Positions 1 through 18,109 of a DNA stretch of 64,000 bases are shown piece after piece. The position numbers and the translations under genes were made by a program. The DNA comes from Pontiella desulfatans (GTDB taxonomy: Bacteria > Verrucomicrobiota > Kiritimatiellia > Kiritimatiellales > Pontiellaceae). The stretch covers positions 1 through 64,000 of the forward strand of contig NZ_CAAHFG010000004.1 in NCBI RefSeq assembly GCF_900890425.1. Direction: 5' to 3'. The notes under the pieces were generated by a model that ran no database searches, was not told the DNA's origin, and saw only the letters and a list, made by a program, of their open reading frames with translations. Each line of letters begins with the position of its first letter. Within the stretch, counting starts at the first letter, position 1.

Positions 1-118
1 AGCGATGAAACGATGTGAAACGTCGTTTGGGGCCCCACACCCCCTACCCCCTCCCCTCGGGCGCGATTTGCCGCTACGCTGCCGTCTCTTCGAGCCAGCC
101 TCACTGCGCAAGCTTGTG

Positions 119-197
119 TCCAATGATTGGAAAGTTCCAATGGTTGGAAGTTTTTGGAAGGGGGCCCGGGGGAAACCTTTTTCCAATGTCTGGAAGT
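119..197. repeat. Cluster of TCCAATG-ATTGGAA palindromic repeats
   Basis: Three imperfect palindromes of the form TTCCAATGnTTGGAA lie at 119-133, 135-155 and 178-197, with a fourth relative (TTTTCCAGAGATTGGAA) at 547-563. Each pairs a TTCCA arm with a TGGAA arm. They look like a dispersed intergenic palindromic element; no function can be read from the sequence. Confidence 0.5.
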
Positions 198-711
198 CCC
201 ACTTGCCCCGCAGGGTAGCCGCGGGGTGGCCTTTCCGAAGCGCGACGCTGGAGAATCGGAGAGCGAAGAACCGCCTCTCGGGCGGGGGCTTGGGGCGCGG
301 ACAGCGAGCCTGCGAGATGGACGCGCCAAGGCCGGGCGGGCGGGGGATGCGGTGGGTGTAGGCGTAAGCCGAAACCACGCGACCACGGCCGCCCCGCCCG
401 ACCGCCATAGCGCTATGTTGAAGGACCAGGAGGAAGGGGCCGGGGCGGGCGCGGTTTGGGCGTAAGCCGAAACCGTGACAGCTATGGGGCAAGGGGTGAG
501 GCCGAAGGCCGAGGGGGAAGCGGGCGCCCCGCCGGGGGCTGCCCCCTTTTCCAGAGATTGGAAGTTTTCCGACGAAGGGCGCGGCACGTGTCGAGTGCGC
601 GAGCCGTGCCAAGCCCGAAGCCTCCGAGCAACGCGAGAAGCAAGGCGGACTTAACAGAATGGGTTCTGTTTAAGCGAGCCGGGCGCAAGAAAGCGAAATG
701 TGCGAAGCGAA

Positions 712-732
712 CGCATAATGCCGCATTATGCG
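712..732. repeat. Perfect 9-bp hairpin
   Basis: CGCATAATG-CCG-CATTATGCG is a perfect inverted repeat with a 3-nt loop. No T-run follows on either strand, so it is not a standard terminator. It stands out as an AT-containing palindrome in very GC-rich DNA. Confidence 0.5.
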
Positions 733-1120
733 ACTTTGAGCGTTCCGAAGGATTCTGCGCCCGATAGCGAGCGGTTCCGCCGCCGCAGGTCAATGAGAGG
801 GAACGCAGTGACCGTTGGAGCGCCCCGGCAAATTCCGGAAAGCGTATGCGTCGGAACTGCCGCCGGGGTGCGGCCGAAGGCTCCATAGCCCCGCAGGGCA
901 GGCCGTAAGGCCCCCGGAGGAAGACCGGCCCGGGCGGCTGAAGGCGAGAAGGGAGTCTGCGACCGGAACGCCTTGAGCCGTTCGGATCAGCCGGGATTCC
1001 GGAGTGCTCTTGAAGCGCTTGAGCCGAATTTGCGTGGAGCTCCCCGTAGGGCTTGGCCGGGCGAGCTGGCGTAGCCTTGTTCGCCCGGCGAGCGGAACGC
1101 AAAGGCGGCTGAAGCGCGCC

Positions 1121-1609
1121 GTGGCGGGAGTAGCCGCCACCCACATCGCGCTGGCAAGGGAGAATTTGCGGGGGCCGGGAGCGTAGCTTGCGAAGCGGAC
1201 GGACTGCGCAATTTCTTTCTTGCCCAGGGCGCGACGCACATCCCCCCGTTGCGGGGGGCTTGGGGGGGATCACCCGAAGCAGCGCGAGGTGGCGTTTGGG
1301 AACGAGTTTCCGCCCGGCGGAATGAGGTACGATTGAAGCCGGGGCGGAAGGGAGCGAGCAAATGACGCCTGGCGCTGCGGCGCGGGGTGGCGGGAGCAGC
1401 CGACACCCATACCGCGCTGACAAAGGAGAATTTGTGAAGGAAGCTGATTGAGGAGACCGGGAACGGACAGCGTACAGCGTAGCTGGCCGCTGGGAGTGGA
1501 CGGGTCGACGATTGAAGCTGGATGAACAATTTCTTCTTTGGCTCAAGGCGCGGAGTACATCCCCCCGTTGCGGGGGGGCTTGGGGGGTACCCCGAAGCAG
1601 CGCGAGGTG
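1121..1609. repeat. Diverged tandem duplication with C6/G6 hairpins
   Basis: Two related blocks follow each other. The block beginning GTGGCGGGAGTAGCCG at 1121 recurs as GTGGCGGGAGCAGCCG at 1387, each running to GGAGAATTTG. A second part, CCCCCCGTTGCGGGGGG then GCTTGGGGGG and CCGAAGCAGCGCGAGGTG, occurs at 1242 and 1561. The offsets differ (266 and 319 bp), so indels separate the copies. Each copy carries a CCCCCCG-TTG-CGGGGGG hairpin. Confidence 0.55.
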
Positions 1610-1843
1610 AACTTTGTGGATGACGAGCCGGAAGGGAAAAGAGGAAATGTGCTTAGGGAGTCAGACCGAGCATCGTGCATGGAACATGCAAGCGATGCTT
1701 CGTTCTGACCCCGGCGCTTTCCTCTGCCCTGGAGGACCGGAAGGAGCAAAGGGCGCCTGGCGGTGCGGCGTAGATAAGCTGGAAACGTGAAATAAAAGCG
1801 GCATCGAACTTCCGCAGACCAACAGCATCAGCGCGCCCGGAGG

Positions 1844-2158
1844 TCACGCCCTACCCTTGCGACGGGATCGCTTAGCAACCTTTTCTGGAAAGAGAGGACG
1901 TAGTGCCGGCCAGTCGCGTAGTGCACGCTTGTGTCGCATCTCGGCGAGCTGGGTGGAGATACCGAGCTGTTCTCCAATCTCCCGATAGGTAGCGCCGAGA
2001 AAACGCAGCCCAACCACATCCCGCAACTCCGGATCGAGCATGAATACTCCCTTGATTAATTCGGTAAGCAGTTCAGCGGGGTAAAGTGCCCCCGGTGGGA
2101 TTGGAGAATAAGCGGCAGATAATAATCCGGCTGCGGGTTGGGTATCGGTGTGTTTCAT
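1844..2158 (-). CDS. Small sigma-70 region 4-like helix-turn-helix protein
   Basis: A 104-residue protein. Residues about 35-80 (ELRDVVGLRFLGATYREIGE then QLGISTQLAEMRHKRALRDW) have the spacing of a sigma-70 region 4 helix-turn-helix, with a recognition helix followed by a basic tail KRSRRKGRA. AGGAG lies 6 nt before the ATG. It is encoded downstream of the primase-helicase on the same strand and is separated from it by an array of GTCAG half-sites. A DNA-binding or element-control role is plausible, and it may bind that array. Phage and mobile-element proteins of this size often use this fold; the exact family is not identified. Confidence 0.65.
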   Translation of the reverse strand: MKHTDTQPAAGLLSAAYSPIPPGALYPAELLTELIKGVFMLDPELRDVVGLRFLGATYREIGEQLGISTQLAEMRHKRALRDWPALRPLFPEKVAKRSRRKGRA

Positions 2159-2183
2159 GATGGTCTCCTATGTTGAAGGTTAT

Positions 2184-2436
2184 GTCAGCCGGAACTGACG
2201 TGATGTTGAAGCGGAGGGGCTCACAGCCTGACGTAAAACTGTGAAAACCGAAACGTCAGGAATGATGTCAGGCAGGAAACCCCTGCAAACAGGGCGTTCT
2301 GACATTCCTGACATTATTACTATTAATATATAAAGATATATAGAGGGAGGCTGAAACCCGCGCTGACGGCGTGAACCTGCAGAACCGGGAGTTCCAGAGA
2401 CTTTTTTCAGCATGATGTCAGACGTCAGGACGTCAG
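2184..2436. promoter_or_regulatory. Iteron-like GTCAG/CTGAC array with AT-rich core
   Basis: Eleven GTCAG or CTGAC pentamers occur in 253 bp (starting at 2184, 2195, 2228, 2255, 2267, 2299, 2308, 2363, 2417, 2424 and 2432); about 0.5 would be expected by chance. Two clusters face each other: GTCAGGAATGATGTCAGG at 2255-2272, and its near reverse complement TGACATTCCTGACATT at 2300-2315. A nearly pure A/T stretch (2313-2341) follows. A third cluster, GTCAGACGTCAGGACGTCAG, lies at 2417-2436. The array sits between a replication-type gene and a helix-turn-helix gene. It may be a replication origin with iterons or a multi-site operator. Confidence 0.55.
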
Positions 2437-2501
2437 TAGAACGGTGTAATGCTTCGCCCGGTCTATAGCGCCTGCCGTGGCGATACTGCCCTACCCAATG
2501 A

Positions 2502-4715
2502 TTAGAATGGAACAACATTGGATTCCCCTCCGTTCATAAGGTTCTTGATATCGATGCACCACACTCGCTTGAACTCATGCCGCCGCTGTGTGATCGGATA
2601 CCCCTGAGAAAAGAGTTTAGAGAGTTCCCGCCCTACCTGGCGGGTGGTGTATTTGGAAGCGATGCCGGCAAGGCCGTCGGTGTCGTTAAGCATCGCTGTC
2701 AAAAGATCTGTGGCGGAACCTTCCCAGGTGTCTTCCACCTGCCCCTCGAAAAACTTTAAGAGGACTTCGAGGAACGAATAGGCGCTGGATGAATGCCGGG
2801 CCGCTTCGAACAGGGAATCGTCACAATAGGTCTTCACGCCATAGCGTGTATCGCCGATGACTGCGTCCGGCGGTTGCCAGTCGAGCAGCCAACGTAGAAA
2901 GAACGGCAACTCTGCGGCAATGATGGATTCGACATCGCGCGGGAAGGTAAAGGTGTCTCGTTCCGCAATCCGGAAGAGGTTGATCTTGTCCCGATTGGAG
3001 AGATCGACGTCGGGCAGAATACGGATCGACTCGGGATCGGTATTGCACGTCACCACCACTCGGCCGTTCCATTCGATCAACTTGTCGACGCGGTATTTCT
3101 CGCGCACGGAAAAGGTGCGATTGGCGGCCATCTTCTTGATGAGGGCAGAGAACTTCAGATGGGACTTGTTATCCGTAAGCGGTACGACATCGTCGACCGC
3201 CCAAACGGCACTGGTGAAGAGATGGCTATTGAAGTTATCGTCTCCGGACAGGAATGAGCTGGCATCAATATGGCCGCCGAAGATGCGGGACAGGATCACA
3301 TTGGAGAGCAGGGTTTTTCCAGTGTTTGGAACTCCGGCAAAGAAGGAGGCCTGCCCGGGGAGCATACGGCCGTCGAGCGCTGATTGATACCAGCGCTGCA
3401 GCCAGGCGTAGAAATAGTCGAGCTGTTCGGGTGGGTCGAAATAGCCACTGAAATAATCGTGCAGCCAGGGATAGGGGCAGGCACTGGGCGTTAGGGCCGG
3501 GGCATTAGGGGGCGATCCGAGGTCACGGCCCTCGGCTACAGTAGCCGGCGGGCCGCCGGCGGTACATTGCGGTGCGGATGATCCGGGGACACCGCCCCCG
3601 GCTACAACCTCTGCGGGTTGGAGGACATTGATGGTGGAGGTGTTGAGAACTCGGTCTGAACCGATCATAACGATGCCTTTGGGGCGGTGAACTAATGGAG
3701 CGGCGCAGGCGATGCGCTGGTGCTGAATAATACGCGTAAGTGCCTGCTCCACCTCGCTGTAATTTTCCCCGCGAGCGGGACTGCCGCGCAGGCCACGGTC
3801 GACCTTGAGGATCATGGCCATATCGGATTTGCAATAGGATTCCCAGTTGCCATCGGGAAGCTGCATCCAGCACTCGCGTCCATCAAAATAAATGTACGCA
3901 ATGCTACCCCCGATCCGGTCAGCCACGAACTGTTTGACAAATTTTCTCCCCAGAATCGATGCCCACGGAACAAAGGCCTGCCCGCCGGTGAAACACTGCA
4001 TCCCCGACTCGCGCACGATGGCCGCGGTCTCGTTGTCTGCATCGGGATCCCAAAAACGTGTACTACGTGCGCCAAAATCAAACAGCCCCTTCCAGCGACC
4101 GGGATACTGACGATGCACCTCTTCCTCAAGCACATCCATCGGAATGACCGGCCCCAGTTTGGGCCAGGCATAATTATGGGTAGATTCAATGGCCCACTGC
4201 ATCATGAATGCGGAAGGGATTTCGTCATCTGACAACTTTTCCCAGTCGGTACCAGCCTCATAATACTTACAGGGATCTTCCAGGGCCTCGGCATCGAGTC
4301 CAACCAGCAGTTTGGAAAGCCGGAGTTTCTTTCTGATGTACCGCATGAGCTTTTTGGACAGCTCGTTGTTATGCAGCGGCAACGGGGATTCGAGTTTCCA
4401 CAGCAGACGGGCCCCTCCGGAAAACGTGCGACAAATGTATTGAGGCCTGAAATCGGGACATCGCTCCAGAACGCTACCGCGCATGTGCTGATCAATGTTA
4501 CCGTCATAATCCGCCACGATCCAATGAAGCATAACCGCCGGGTTGTTTTTGGAATCGATCCGGGCCCCGGCAACAAGACCTTCATAGCCGGAGTAGAACG
4601 TGTGCTCCACACTCGGGTTATTCCAACGGGCCTTGGGTGGTGCTTTAGTCGATATGTTCCAGGGAGAGCATTCTTTAGTTAGAGATGAGGCGAGGTTCGG
4701 TATTGAAAGTAGCAT
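2502..4715 (-). CDS. Phage/plasmid-type DNA primase-helicase
   Basis: A 737-residue protein joining an archaeo-eukaryotic-type primase region to an SF3/D5-like helicase. Around residues 66-73 the IVADYDGN segment resembles the acidic motif of the prim-pol fold. A Walker A, GVPNTGKTLLSN, lies near residues 461-472, with a Walker B-like WAVDDVV about 45 residues later. The C-terminal third resembles the winged-helix end of phage primase-helicases. Such proteins start replication of phages, plasmids or integrative elements, so this marks an element remnant. Residues about 368-412, between the halves, are a low-complexity Gly/Pro/Ala linker encoded by two palindromic repeats. No clear ribosome site precedes the chosen ATG. 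No capsid or packaging genes are nearby. Confidence 0.75.
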   Translation of the reverse strand: MLLSIPNLASSLTKECSPWNISTKAPPKARWNNPSVEHTFYSGYEGLVAGARIDSKNNPAVMLHWIVADYDGNIDQHMRGSVLERCPDFRPQYICRTFSGGARLLWKLESPLPLHNNELSKKLMRYIRKKLRLSKLLVGLDAEALEDPCKYYEAGTDWEKLSDDEIPSAFMMQWAIESTHNYAWPKLGPVIPMDVLEEEVHRQYPGRWKGLFDFGARSTRFWDPDADNETAAIVRESGMQCFTGGQAFVPWASILGRKFVKQFVADRIGGSIAYIYFDGRECWMQLPDGNWESYCKSDMAMILKVDRGLRGSPARGENYSEVEQALTRIIQHQRIACAAPLVHRPKGIVMIGSDRVLNTSTINVLQPAEVVAGGGVPGSSAPQCTAGGPPATVAEGRDLGSPPNAPALTPSACPYPWLHDYFSGYFDPPEQLDYFYAWLQRWYQSALDGRMLPGQASFFAGVPNTGKTLLSNVILSRIFGGHIDASSFLSGDDNFNSHLFTSAVWAVDDVVPLTDNKSHLKFSALIKKMAANRTFSVREKYRVDKLIEWNGRVVVTCNTDPESIRILPDVDLSNRDKINLFRIAERDTFTFPRDVESIIAAELPFFLRWLLDWQPPDAVIGDTRYGVKTYCDDSLFEAARHSSSAYSFLEVLLKFFEGQVEDTWEGSATDLLTAMLNDTDGLAGIASKYTTRQVGRELSKLFSQGYPITQRRHEFKRVWCIDIKNLMNGGESNVVPF
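3514..3606. repeat. Two in-frame palindromic units inside the primase-helicase gene
   Basis: Two 27-bp units start at 3514 and 3580, exactly 66 bp (22 codons) apart. Each is GATCC, a 6-bp stem, a loop, the matching stem and GGCTACA. The stems are CCGAGG/CCTCGG in unit 1 and CCGGGG/CCCCGG in unit 2, so the difference is compensatory. They encode a disordered linker between two enzyme domains, as expected for a REP-like element tolerated inside a gene. Confidence 0.6.
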
Positions 4716-5064
4716 GGCATTCCTTTGGGTTCAGGCTTAGAAGGGACAACCCCCTTACCCAAAGTTGAATTTTCAAACGCTGAAAACCGGGCTGTCTGAA
4801 CCTAACGAAACGACCTGAAACGGAATGATTTCATGAACAACACCATGAAAATGCGATGTTTAGATGCGATGCGAACGGCGAGAAGAGAATCATCAACGCT
4901 GCCGTCCTGTTGTCACAGAACCGTTTGAGTGGGACGCTGTTAATGAGATTCCACTATAGGGGCGTTTAAAGCACTTCTTCCAGAGAATCAACCTGTTCGG
5001 ATCCTGCCCCGCAACCTAGGTGCCCAACCTTGACAACCCTCCTCGTCCCCATTAACTTTTTAGG
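4716..5064. other. Intergenic region, nothing recognised
   Basis: About 350 bp between the primase-helicase start and a divergently oriented lipoprotein gene. It must contain promoters for both directions, but I see no clear pair of boxes, no RNA gene and no strong hairpin. Confidence 0.4.
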
Positions 5065-6228
5065 ATGAAATTGCTCTCAAGACCACCTTCCCGCGGCATG
5101 TACCCTAAACGACCCAGTAGCGCTATCAGATCATTCCTATACCGGTCACCTGCCTCTATTACCAGGTATGCGCTACTGTTTTTGGTGCTTCTCTCGGTGT
5201 TGTTGACCGGTTGCCGAATGCTTAATTCGGCGGCCACGGTGCCTCAGCGCACGGCCAATGTATTTTTCCCTGGAGGGCGATCGGTTCAACCTGATCCGGC
5301 GCACTTGCTGCAGAGCTTGATGAACTACTCGGATCGGTACAGCGCTCAAGTCAACCGGTCCGTGGATGAACTTACAGGTGTTGAAGGATCGCCCTTCGAT
5401 GCGCGATCCGCCATCCAATTCAAGATCGATAACAGTCAGGCCACCCTGTCGATTGTTGCCAATGTGGATCCCTACGCAAGTCTGTTCGACATGGTCTCCT
5501 TCGTGACGCTGACACGCATGGTGTTGGAAGATCACTGGGTGACCGGTGAGAACGGACATCTATACGAGAATTGGCTCAACCGTACGCGTCGGCAGGAAAC
5601 CAATCTCTGGGGAATCGTGGATCAGGTGCTTCGTCGGGAACAACAGGAGGAACTGCGGAAGGCCGTGGAGGACTACTACCGAGATAATCCGGATATCTGT
5701 CGCGCATTGCGGACTCAGCCACAGGAAATGGCATCCGCGATACCGAGAAGGGTGGGCTCCGTGGAGAACTCGCAGAATTTCTTTTCATTGGACCCGTTTG
5801 CGAGTCTCGATCCGGTCACCCGTGAGCTCACCGAGTCGCGGCTTTTCGCCAAACGGGCCACCTTCGTTCTCACACGCATGCCTGAATTGTTGCGGTGGCA
5901 AAGTGAGTTACTCCTGATGGATTCGACTGCACAGCCTGATGTCGCCCAAATGATCCGGAACTCAACGAGCATAAGCGAAAGCCTTGATCGGGCCAGCCGA
6001 GCGGTGGAAGCACTGCCTGATCACATCTCCTACGAGCGCGAAGCGTTGGTTCAGGCTCTGACAGATCAGCAGTCGGAACTCTCTGAGATCATCGAAACCG
6101 CCACCGCGATGTCGGAATCGATGACCGGTACAGTGACGAATACCATCAGACTAGTACAACTGTTCGGAGTCGGAGAGACCAATCTCGCTCTAGGCACGAC
6201 CAGTACGAACAGCAATCCGTTTGATAAC
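5065..6228 (+). pseudogene. Lipoprotein gene with 3' end replaced by a transposase fragment
   Basis: About 390 native residues remain. After an unusually long basic leader there is a hydrophobic run ending LLTGC, a type II signal peptide with lipobox, so the product would be anchored to a membrane. The rest is soluble and rich in helix-forming residues (for example residues 280-370, with repeated ELSEIIETATAMSES-like stretches). I do not recognise the family. Near 6228 the frame runs into DNA that encodes an ISL3 transposase in another frame, so the last 29 codons of the open frame are not native. The first ATG has only a weak TTAGG upstream; the ATG at 5098 is an alternative. Confidence 0.5.
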
Positions 6229-6970
6229 GGTGGTGTACCAGCTCGATGCCGGAGTACGTCGTCTAATTTACGTCGGCAAAAGCCGGACCACAAAAACACT
6301 GCTGAGATTCTTCTTTGAATTCGGTAAGGAACGCACTGCTGCGTTGAAGTTTATCTGCTCGGATATGTGGAAGCCGTATCTGAAAGTCATTGCCAAAAAA
6401 GCACCACAGGCACTGAACATTCTCGATCGGTTTCACATTGTCTCCCACCTAACCAAAGCGGTCAATCAGGTGCGGATAGAAGAAGTGAAGCGACTCAAAG
6501 ACGAGGGCTACGATGAAAGTGTCCTTCGGCATACAAAATACTGCTTACTCAAGAACCCGGAAAACCTGACGCCGAAACAGGAGGCAAAACTCGACGACGC
6601 ACTCAGCTATGATCTCAAGAGCGTGAGGGCTTATCTGCTCAAAGAAAGCTTTCAGCTTTTCTGGGACTATGACAGCCCGTACTGGGCAGAATGGTATCTG
6701 GATAAATGGTGCAAAAGAGCTATGCGTTCTCGGCTGGAACCAATCAAAAAATTCGTCAAAACAGTTCGTTCTCACCAGCCGCTGATCATGAACTGGTTCA
6801 AAGCAAAAAAGGCCTATTCATCAGGTATTGTCGAAGGAATGAACCGCAATGTGAATCTGGTAACGAGAAAAGCCTTCGGGTTTCGGAGCTATGAAGTGTT
6901 AAAAATCGCCCTGTTTCACACGGTGGGAGGGTTGCCGGAGCCGGAATCAACCCACCGATTCTGCGGATGA
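6229..6970 (+). pseudogene. ISL3-family transposase, 5'-truncated
   Basis: The frame encodes the C-terminal ~245 residues of a DDE transposase of the ISL3 family. Recognisable pieces are VYQLDAGVRRLIYVGKSRT, the aspartate-bearing CSDMWKPYLKVI, the LDRFHIV segment, and near the end SSGIVEGMNRNVNLVTRKAF with its conserved EG-N-N pattern. The N-terminal zinc-finger and helix-turn-helix half is absent. The fragment begins directly at the end of the interrupted lipoprotein gene. The sequence after the stop (to about 7010, AGGGGTCCCTT) may be the remaining IS end, but no partner repeat exists to confirm it. Confidence 0.75.
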
Positions 6971-16714: not shown

Positions 16715-18109
16715 TCACCGGAGCATTTCCGCCTTGGGGGCCTGCCAGATTTCCATCTTCTTGAGGTCCGGCACATAGACCCTCATGATGGGGCCGATAT
16801 CCTCGTCCTTACGATTGATCGGCAGCCAGTTTTCTTCTGGAACGCCTTCGGGCTTTTGAGCCGCTATGTAGATGGCAATACCCCCGTCTTGGTCAAGCTT
16901 CATGCCGGCGTTTTCACCCACGCTGTATTTTTTAAGGTCGTTGGGAATAAAGAATCCGTTCTGCAGGTCATAGAGTGTGACCGACCAGAACACCTTCGTT
17001 GGAGGAAGCTCGTCGGCAGTCATGCGGATCACGTAGTCGTGCATGGCATTCATCTGCTTTCCATCGGTGGTTGTCACGCCGGGATAGACCGCCTCGACGG
17101 CCGGCAGCCCGATCGGGCCGACAATGGACTGGAAGAGCAACAGGTCGAGGGTCATCTGGCCCTTTTCCAGAAACTTCCCGAAGAGTTCCCGCTTCTGAAA
17201 CTCCTTGTCGGAGAGTTTGGCCATCTCCTCGGTGAAGATCCGCTCGGAGACCTTGCGGATCTTCGCGCCATCGACCTTCGTTACCTTGGCGGGGTCGTAG
17301 GGTTGGCTGGGCACGACACCGAGCGGCTCGTAGACAGCGAGCACCGCCTGGTCGAGCTCGTCGTCCGGATCGAAGGTGGTGTGATTGAAGACGAACTGCA
17401 TCACTTCAAGCAGGTTGTTCTCGAAGATGTCCGCGTCCCGCTGACCAACCGCAGGGAACTCGAGGTCATCGATCGGCTTGGCTTTTCCTCCTTTGAACTC
17501 TGAGAGAGTGCGGATATTGACCTGCTCCATCTGCCCAACAATCCATTTAAAGCGTTTTTTATCCTTCGCATGAGGCATGATCCTCAGAACCGCCGAAATG
17601 AAGTCGCCGGAGCACTCGAAGATACGGTCGACCCCCTCGATGGACTCCCCTTTGTAACCTTCGGTCCGTTCGGTGTAGAACAGTATCTTCACGGGCTTCC
17701 TGAAGTCGCCGAGCCGTGTTGCCATCGGCACGTTGACGTAGTGGTCGTAGCCGGTGACCATCAGCGAGACGTAGTCCGAATCGAAGGCCGGCATTTCGAG
17801 GATCACCGGGTCCTTGCGCAGGACAAGCTGGGCACCGATGTAGAGCGTGTCGTTGTTGGGCCGCGCGATTTCCCGCATCGTGTGGTCTTTGAGCTGCGTA
17901 TCGGCGTCCACCGTATTCCAGCCGCCCTGTTTCATCGCGAACTTATTGTTCACGTTATACATCGCCACGTACTGGTAGGAGCGTTTGACGAGATTTTCGA
18001 TTTCAGTATTGCTGAGTCCGCTGCAATGTATGTCTCCTCCATGGCTACAACCGCTAAACAGAGCGAAGCCCAGAATAGCTCCGAGAATAAAAATGTAAGT
18101 TCCCTTCAT
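16715..18109 (-). CDS. DUF1254/DUF1214 lipoprotein
   Basis: A 464-residue protein. The signal ends ALFSGC, a lipobox. The N-terminal DUF1254 part includes ARPNNDTLYIGAQLVLRKDPVILEMP and YVSLMVTGYDHYVNVP. The C-terminal DUF1214 part has FWSVTLYDLQNGFFIPN, GMKLDQDGGIAIYIAAQKP and ENWLP. This two-domain protein is common in bacteria, often near envelope stress or transport genes, and its biochemical role is not established. Length is normal for the family and both domains look intact. It is followed by the beta-rich lipoprotein gene on the same strand. Confidence 0.85.
   Translation of the reverse strand: MKGTYIFILGAILGFALFSGCSHGGDIHCSGLSNTEIENLVKRSYQYVAMYNVNNKFAMKQGGWNTVDADTQLKDHTMREIARPNNDTLYIGAQLVLRKDPVILEMPAFDSDYVSLMVTGYDHYVNVPMATRLGDFRKPVKILFYTERTEGYKGESIEGVDRIFECSGDFISAVLRIMPHAKDKKRFKWIVGQMEQVNIRTLSEFKGGKAKPIDDLEFPAVGQRDADIFENNLLEVMQFVFNHTTFDPDDELDQAVLAVYEPLGVVPSQPYDPAKVTKVDGAKIRKVSERIFTEEMAKLSDKEFQKRELFGKFLEKGQMTLDLLLFQSIVGPIGLPAVEAVYPGVTTTDGKQMNAMHDYVIRMTADELPPTKVFWSVTLYDLQNGFFIPNDLKKYSVGENAGMKLDQDGGIAIYIAAQKPEGVPEENWLPINRKDEDIGPIMRVYVPDLKKMEIWQAPKAEMLR

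Follow-up and report, generated by a model that had tools for sequence, protein, structure and literature searches.

The cluster of GTCAG sites at positions 2184-2436 of the window (the 64-kb stretch of DNA analysed here, which forms the start of contig C4 in a genome of 8.66 Mb and six contigs) very probably represents the origin of replication of a temperate tailed phage and survives in a prophage remnant. It lies 3' of a gene for a DUF5906 primase-helicase and upstream of a gene of sigma-70 region-4 (sigma-r4) type. The first-pass annotation had suggested an iteron origin, and the comparison of homologous loci supports this reading through arrays at the same place, a shared anatomy and the joint switching of repeats and wing residues of the primase-helicase. 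The pairing of an initiator gene with its own 3' iteron origin, as in SaPI-type elements, would thereby extend to tailed phages of the Kiritimatiellota, a little-studied phylum. Naturally occurring specificity swaps among members of one protein family also single out a few wing residues as possible determinants of iteron choice, and a puzzle is raised by a frame that lacks protein-level conservation and is nevertheless kept open across a replication origin.

GTCAG occurs exactly 11 times in these 253 bp when both strands are counted: at 2184, 2255, 2267, 2417, 2424 and 2432 on the plus strand, and at 2195, 2228, 2299, 2308 and 2363 on the minus strand. The earlier description of an inverted pair around a spacer (2255/2267 opposed to 2299/2308), an A/T run and a direct cluster with 7-8 bp spacing holds in each part. 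Beginning at the primase end, iteron set 1 (2415-2438, minus strand) has three sites in direct orientation, which read CTGACGTC CTGACGTC TGACATC in the primase sense; homologues carry counterparts at the 3' end of their primase genes. A conserved A-tract block, GCTGAAAAAAGTCTCT (2396-2412, minus strand), was recognized in an alignment of 14 loci. Between set 1 and the AT-rich run is a single extra GTCAG (2363-2367, minus strand), which is shared with one homologous locus, L002, and absent from most others. The AT-rich core at 2313-2346 is a candidate unwinding element, and the aligned loci have an equally placed A/T run. Next come an iteron pair on the AT-rich side (2299-2312), a spacer with a short hairpin, CCCTGCAAACAGGG (2279-2295; similar in several loci, with the pairing lost in some, such as L039 and L016), and an opposed iteron pair on the far side of the spacer (2255-2271), both pairs being defined by the site list and the alignment. 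The iteron sets at 2415-2438 and 2255-2312 flank the AT-rich DNA. Three extra sites (2184-2232, those at 2184, 2195 and 2228) adjoin the sigma-r4 gene and are also present in L002.

The first-pass annotation had proposed looking for the same array beside homologous primase-helicase genes. Each of the 20 homologous loci was found to have a site array 3' of the gene, with letters that are specific to the locus; the loci include tailed-phage contigs of 18-20 kb and the distant homologues L066 (43% identity) and L069 (31%). Presence of an array refers to all 20 loci and the exact layout to the 14 that were aligned. In the primase sense, the layout runs from set 1 through the A-tract block TTGAAAAAAGTCTCT, AT-rich DNA, an iteron pair and a spacer (in several aligned loci the hairpin CCCTGTTTGCAGGG) to the opposed pair. 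The sites keep a fixed orientation and the same positions, and read (N)TGAC(A/G)TT in one class of loci and GCGTCA(G/T)T in the other; the two classes are called TGACRT and GCGTCA here. Because the same positions carry different letters in different loci, the alignment identifies GTCAG as the form taken at this locus by a site with locus-specific letters. The class-specific hexamer has 5-11 copies per 350 bp at the origin, against a background mean of 0.0-0.5, in 17 of the 20 loci; L020, L023 and L066 fit both hexamer patterns poorly, and the arrays of L020, L023 and L011 are more degenerate. The two classes could also be described by a single GTCA core that is inverted at each site; since intermediates such as TGTCG and CGACA are present, we instead prefer substitutions at sites of fixed orientation.

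Two copies of the locus in this genome differ at none of 55 GTCAG bases and at 26 of 288 neighboring bases (Fisher p 0.012), and their primase genes show dN of 0.020 and dS of 0.135. By these measures, therefore, the iterons and the primase gene have been under selection for at least part of their history. GC skew has no consistent turning point at the array. Other repeats were seen by eye 3' of distant DUF5906 genes in L009, L034, L038 and L076 (GTAAAGC, CTCCACCCC, GGTGTCACC and TGAAGGG); some flank AT-rich DNA and may mark origins of the same design, although 5-mer tests did not establish these sets.

The proposed origin-binding initiator is the 737-residue primase-helicase encoded at 2502-4715 (minus strand). 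It scores 30.7 bits against Pfam PF19263 (DUF5906; cut-off 27.6) and matches PHROG 1156, DNA primase, whereas its 17.9 bits against the NCBIfam P4-family primase model TIGR01613 are below the cut-off of 108.7. A sequence search of the PDB gave nothing credible. A full-length AlphaFold2 model was unusable (mean pLDDT 35), but a model of the C-terminal 148 residues contains a winged-helix domain at residues ~668-724 (2544-2714, minus strand) with elements in the order H-H-H-E-E, pLDDT of ~84-92 and predicted wing strands at 708-713 and 716-722. When this model was used for a structure search, generic winged helices were returned, the best with a Z of 6.7 and none clearly ahead.

To relate the protein to the repeats, the iteron class of each locus was called from the DNA alone, as the fraction of sites with GC before GTCA. 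Seven loci have fractions of 0.62-1.0, and eleven have 0-0.12. When all columns of the primase alignment were scanned, only 714 (H versus others), 716 (T versus K/R) and 724 separated the classes, and these residues are located within the wing hairpin of the predicted winged helix or immediately following it. The wing columns were chosen by scanning, a selection that is covered by label permutation: none of 5000 trials produced as many as two strictly separating columns. On a tree built from the rest of the protein, all five independent switches agree (two-sided sign test p 0.06, the floor for five pairs). Across the aligned sequences, the site changes together with the wing residues of the winged helix, and these residues may choose the repeat sequence; a recombination tract that carries the gene end together with the adjacent origin is a possible source of the same link without any contact. 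Two further site features were considered and set aside. The base after GTCA (G versus T/C) is separated by three primase columns, but this class is uninformative because it is confined to Pontiellaceae and none of the columns is in the wing. The AACGTCA class accompanies L for Q at residue 710 in three of four independent pairs, which are too few.

In the mechanism that we propose, the C-terminal winged helix of the primase-helicase would bind the iterons, and its subunits would assemble as helicase rings on either side. By analogy with SaPI/PICI and Cch2, the AT-rich core would melt and the primase-helicase would load itself; the helicase would then unwind the DNA, and the fused primase and the phage family-A DNA polymerase would start synthesis. 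Iteron initiators often combine origin binding with autoregulation, and the array might be an autoregulatory operator as well as an origin, the bound primase-helicase repressing transcription into the downstream gene. The genes and the array resemble one operon with bridged coding frames, as this dual role would suggest, but a promoter within the array is not indicated by the present analysis, and we consider the dual role possible but rather unlikely.

The closest precedents are the SaPI/PICI origins of phage-inducible islands in Gram-positive and Gram-negative bacteria, which lie just 3' of rep and have two iteron sets around AT-rich DNA (PMC6092414); the iterons are read by the Rep C-terminal domain, and their letters differ between elements (PMC6092414, PMC7581432). 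The SCCmec helicase Cch2 uses its C-terminal domain to bind iterons of 5 nt that follow its gene (PMC7581432). The present loci are like SaPI/PICI in having the array directly downstream of the initiator helicase gene (20 of 20 loci), two sets of short iterons that flank AT-rich DNA (14 aligned loci) and letters that vary between elements. They are unlike SaPI/PICI in that the module is found in phages with their own terminase, portal and PolA, the initiators are DUF5906 proteins of Kiritimatiellota, and opposed pairs surround a spacer while a frame is kept open across the origin. Short repeats downstream of a helicase gene also recall pattern-2 SCCmec Cch2, where they are 5-nt direct repeats in a putative origin; unlike Cch2, which works with a separate polymerase-primase, the protein here is annotated as primase and helicase in one. 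The alpha protein of satellite phage P4 is another primase-helicase that recognizes origin repeats (ori/crr), as is proposed for the window protein, which however falls outside the curated P4-family primases. An origin that works in the SaPI manner need not mean a PICI, since homologous elements have structural genes: a PICI as a whole element is a helper-dependent satellite without full structural genes, whereas the homologous modules are in phage contigs with terminase, portal and protease.

The sigma-r4 gene (1844-2158, minus strand) encodes a 104-residue helix-turn-helix (HTH) protein, probably a phage regulator, that scores 30.6 bits against Pfam Sigma70_r4 (cut-off 24.1; E 2.4e-7). The first-pass annotation had allowed that the array might be a multi-site operator of this protein, which would act on its own promoter and perhaps on late genes; the array is indeed directly upstream of the gene, and the extra sites at 2184-2232 are nearest to it. 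The comparison nevertheless disfavors this explanation. The array is kept in L012, L023, L036 and L069, where no sigma-like gene is recognizable in the sequence (L012 and L036 end within ~0.9 kb), and not one column of the sigma-like protein separates the iteron classes. The recognition helix is almost identical between L041 and L042, whose iterons differ, and the site sets frame an AT-rich core that an operator does not need. An operator for the HTH protein is improbable on this evidence.

The stretch with the array is not plainly intergenic: a 112-codon frame is open across it on the minus strand (2180-2518), starting with an ATG 8 nt after a GGAGG within the 3' end of the primase gene and ending with a stop codon 24 nt short of the sigma-r4 gene. 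In 16 of the 20 loci, which share ancestry and are not 16 independent cases, no stop codon interrupts 250 nt of the reading frame that lies one base after the primase stop; the other frames are open in 0 and 1 of 20. The bridging frame is likewise open in L066 and L069, with very different arrays. In most loci the frame reaches 14 or 17 nt into the primase gene, with AAGGAG or GGAGG ~8 nt upstream of its ATG start. The stop overlaps the sigma-like start (ATGA) in six loci and in L066, and is at most ~25 nt from that start in the window and several other loci. Such a frame could mean that the repeats simply reflect recurring codons of a protein-coding gene and do not act as DNA sites, and its openness and the Shine-Dalgarno sequence and ATG at -14/-17 would fit. 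Substitutions are, however, spread evenly over its codon positions (for example 31/31/26 and 22/22/26), unlike those of the primase gene (18/14/65); the sites occur on both strands; and in L023 and L036 the array persists although the frame is closed. A coding by-product is therefore very improbable, and the flat distribution of substitutions suggests that the frame is kept open without selection on the peptide.

With the array read as an origin, the frame possibly serves as a translational bridge, either to couple the genes or to avert Rho-dependent polarity. Ribosomes on it might keep translating beyond the primase gene, over the origin and as far as the sigma-like gene, a weaker step in the proposed mechanism than the others. 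The ori of phage lambda, with iterons and AT-rich DNA within the translated gene O, is similar in lying inside an open frame, but O is a conserved initiator, unlike the present frame, which starts inside the primase end and lacks protein-level conservation. As a tentative proposal, with the odds somewhat against it as a whole, residues 714 and 716 would set two iteron bases (T1/A3 with K/R716; C1/T3 with H714 and T716) and so create exchangeable, mutually blind replicons, and a frame indifferent to its peptide would let ribosomes cross the origin, coupling the primase to the sigma-like gene.

The density of GTCAG, put at about 20 times random by the first-pass annotation, is borne out by 11 sites where ~0.5 are expected in 253 bp. 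That annotation would have been contradicted by GTCAG being equally common elsewhere in the genome; the whole 64-kb window has 120 copies (chance mean 100.7, sd 10.7) and no comparable clustering at any other place. In 200 windows simulated with an order-2 Markov model, the densest 253 bp held at most 5 GTCAG, and sequence simulated from the composition of the array region itself held at most 4. Among all 5-mers, only CGCCC equals the local density of GTCAG, in a cluster within a G+C-rich stretch. A chance or compositional cluster, for which CGCCC might be cited, has a negligible probability given simulations that never exceeded 5 and an array that reappears in homologues with different letters.

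Named relatives with the same primase-helicase gene are Pontiella sulfatireligans and Pontiellaceae B12227 (Kiritimatiellota). Other copies in this genome are 96% identical (contig C3) and 77% identical (the other end of C4), and there are two distant relatives. The module is present in four IMG/VR contigs of 18-20 kb. A detailed scan of one of them, L042, showed an ERCC4 nuclease, an exonuclease, PolA, the primase-helicase, the array, the sigma-r4 protein, a terminase, a Mu-like portal and a Mu-like protease, and the remaining contigs have a similar order of frames. The phage genes beside the module form a replication set (ERCC4 nuclease, PD-(D/E)XK exonuclease and PolA). From the gene content and order of these contigs, the module can be assigned to tailed phages, several copies of it being integrated in genomes. 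No relative was found among INPHARED phages with tblastn, and a profile scan of viral contigs gave no new phage beyond the four.

The first 45 bases of contig C2 (C2:1, locus L098) match window positions 49-6 reversed, and are followed by a broken terminase frame and then an intact portal gene. Thus, the window prophage probably continues at C2:1, as one prophage split between contigs that we have joined by this match, and it is probably defective, as the terminase frame is broken. The window copy is unlikely to be a satellite, given this probable structural half. A 249-residue transposase-like frame at window 6221-6970 adjoins the prophage remnant, judging from the list of open reading frames. 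A reduced second copy (L006 9808-15925) has the primase-helicase, the origin, the sigma-like gene, a non-coding stretch and a tyrosine integrase; neither PolA nor terminase was recognized nearby, no attachment repeats longer than 10 bp were present in the stretches compared around it, and it is either a satellite or a remnant. Near a contig end, L007 14761-19661 (C4:1166480-1171380) is a 2.45-kb inverted repeat with arms that meet at 17202/17203 and are each ~96% identical to C2:1-2545, possibly an assembly artefact.

A second array, of TTCCAA(N3-4)TTGGAA-like palindromes, is found in non-coding DNA between the sigma-like gene and the terminase: at window 127-181 and 544, L006 14085-14340, L007 14625-14740 and 19676-19790, L010 11990-12238, L041 8019-8227 and L042 9223-9536. 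The palindromes are not clustered in L011, L012, L039 and L040. They are a candidate packaging or late-regulator site. Window 1-1840 is apparently non-coding and G+C-rich, and an Rfam search of window 1-6000 gave no match. In pieces, 1-1840 is 82-90% identical to relatives with primase genes ~75% identical, and it includes a duplicated 85-bp part (1209-1291 and 1527-1609).
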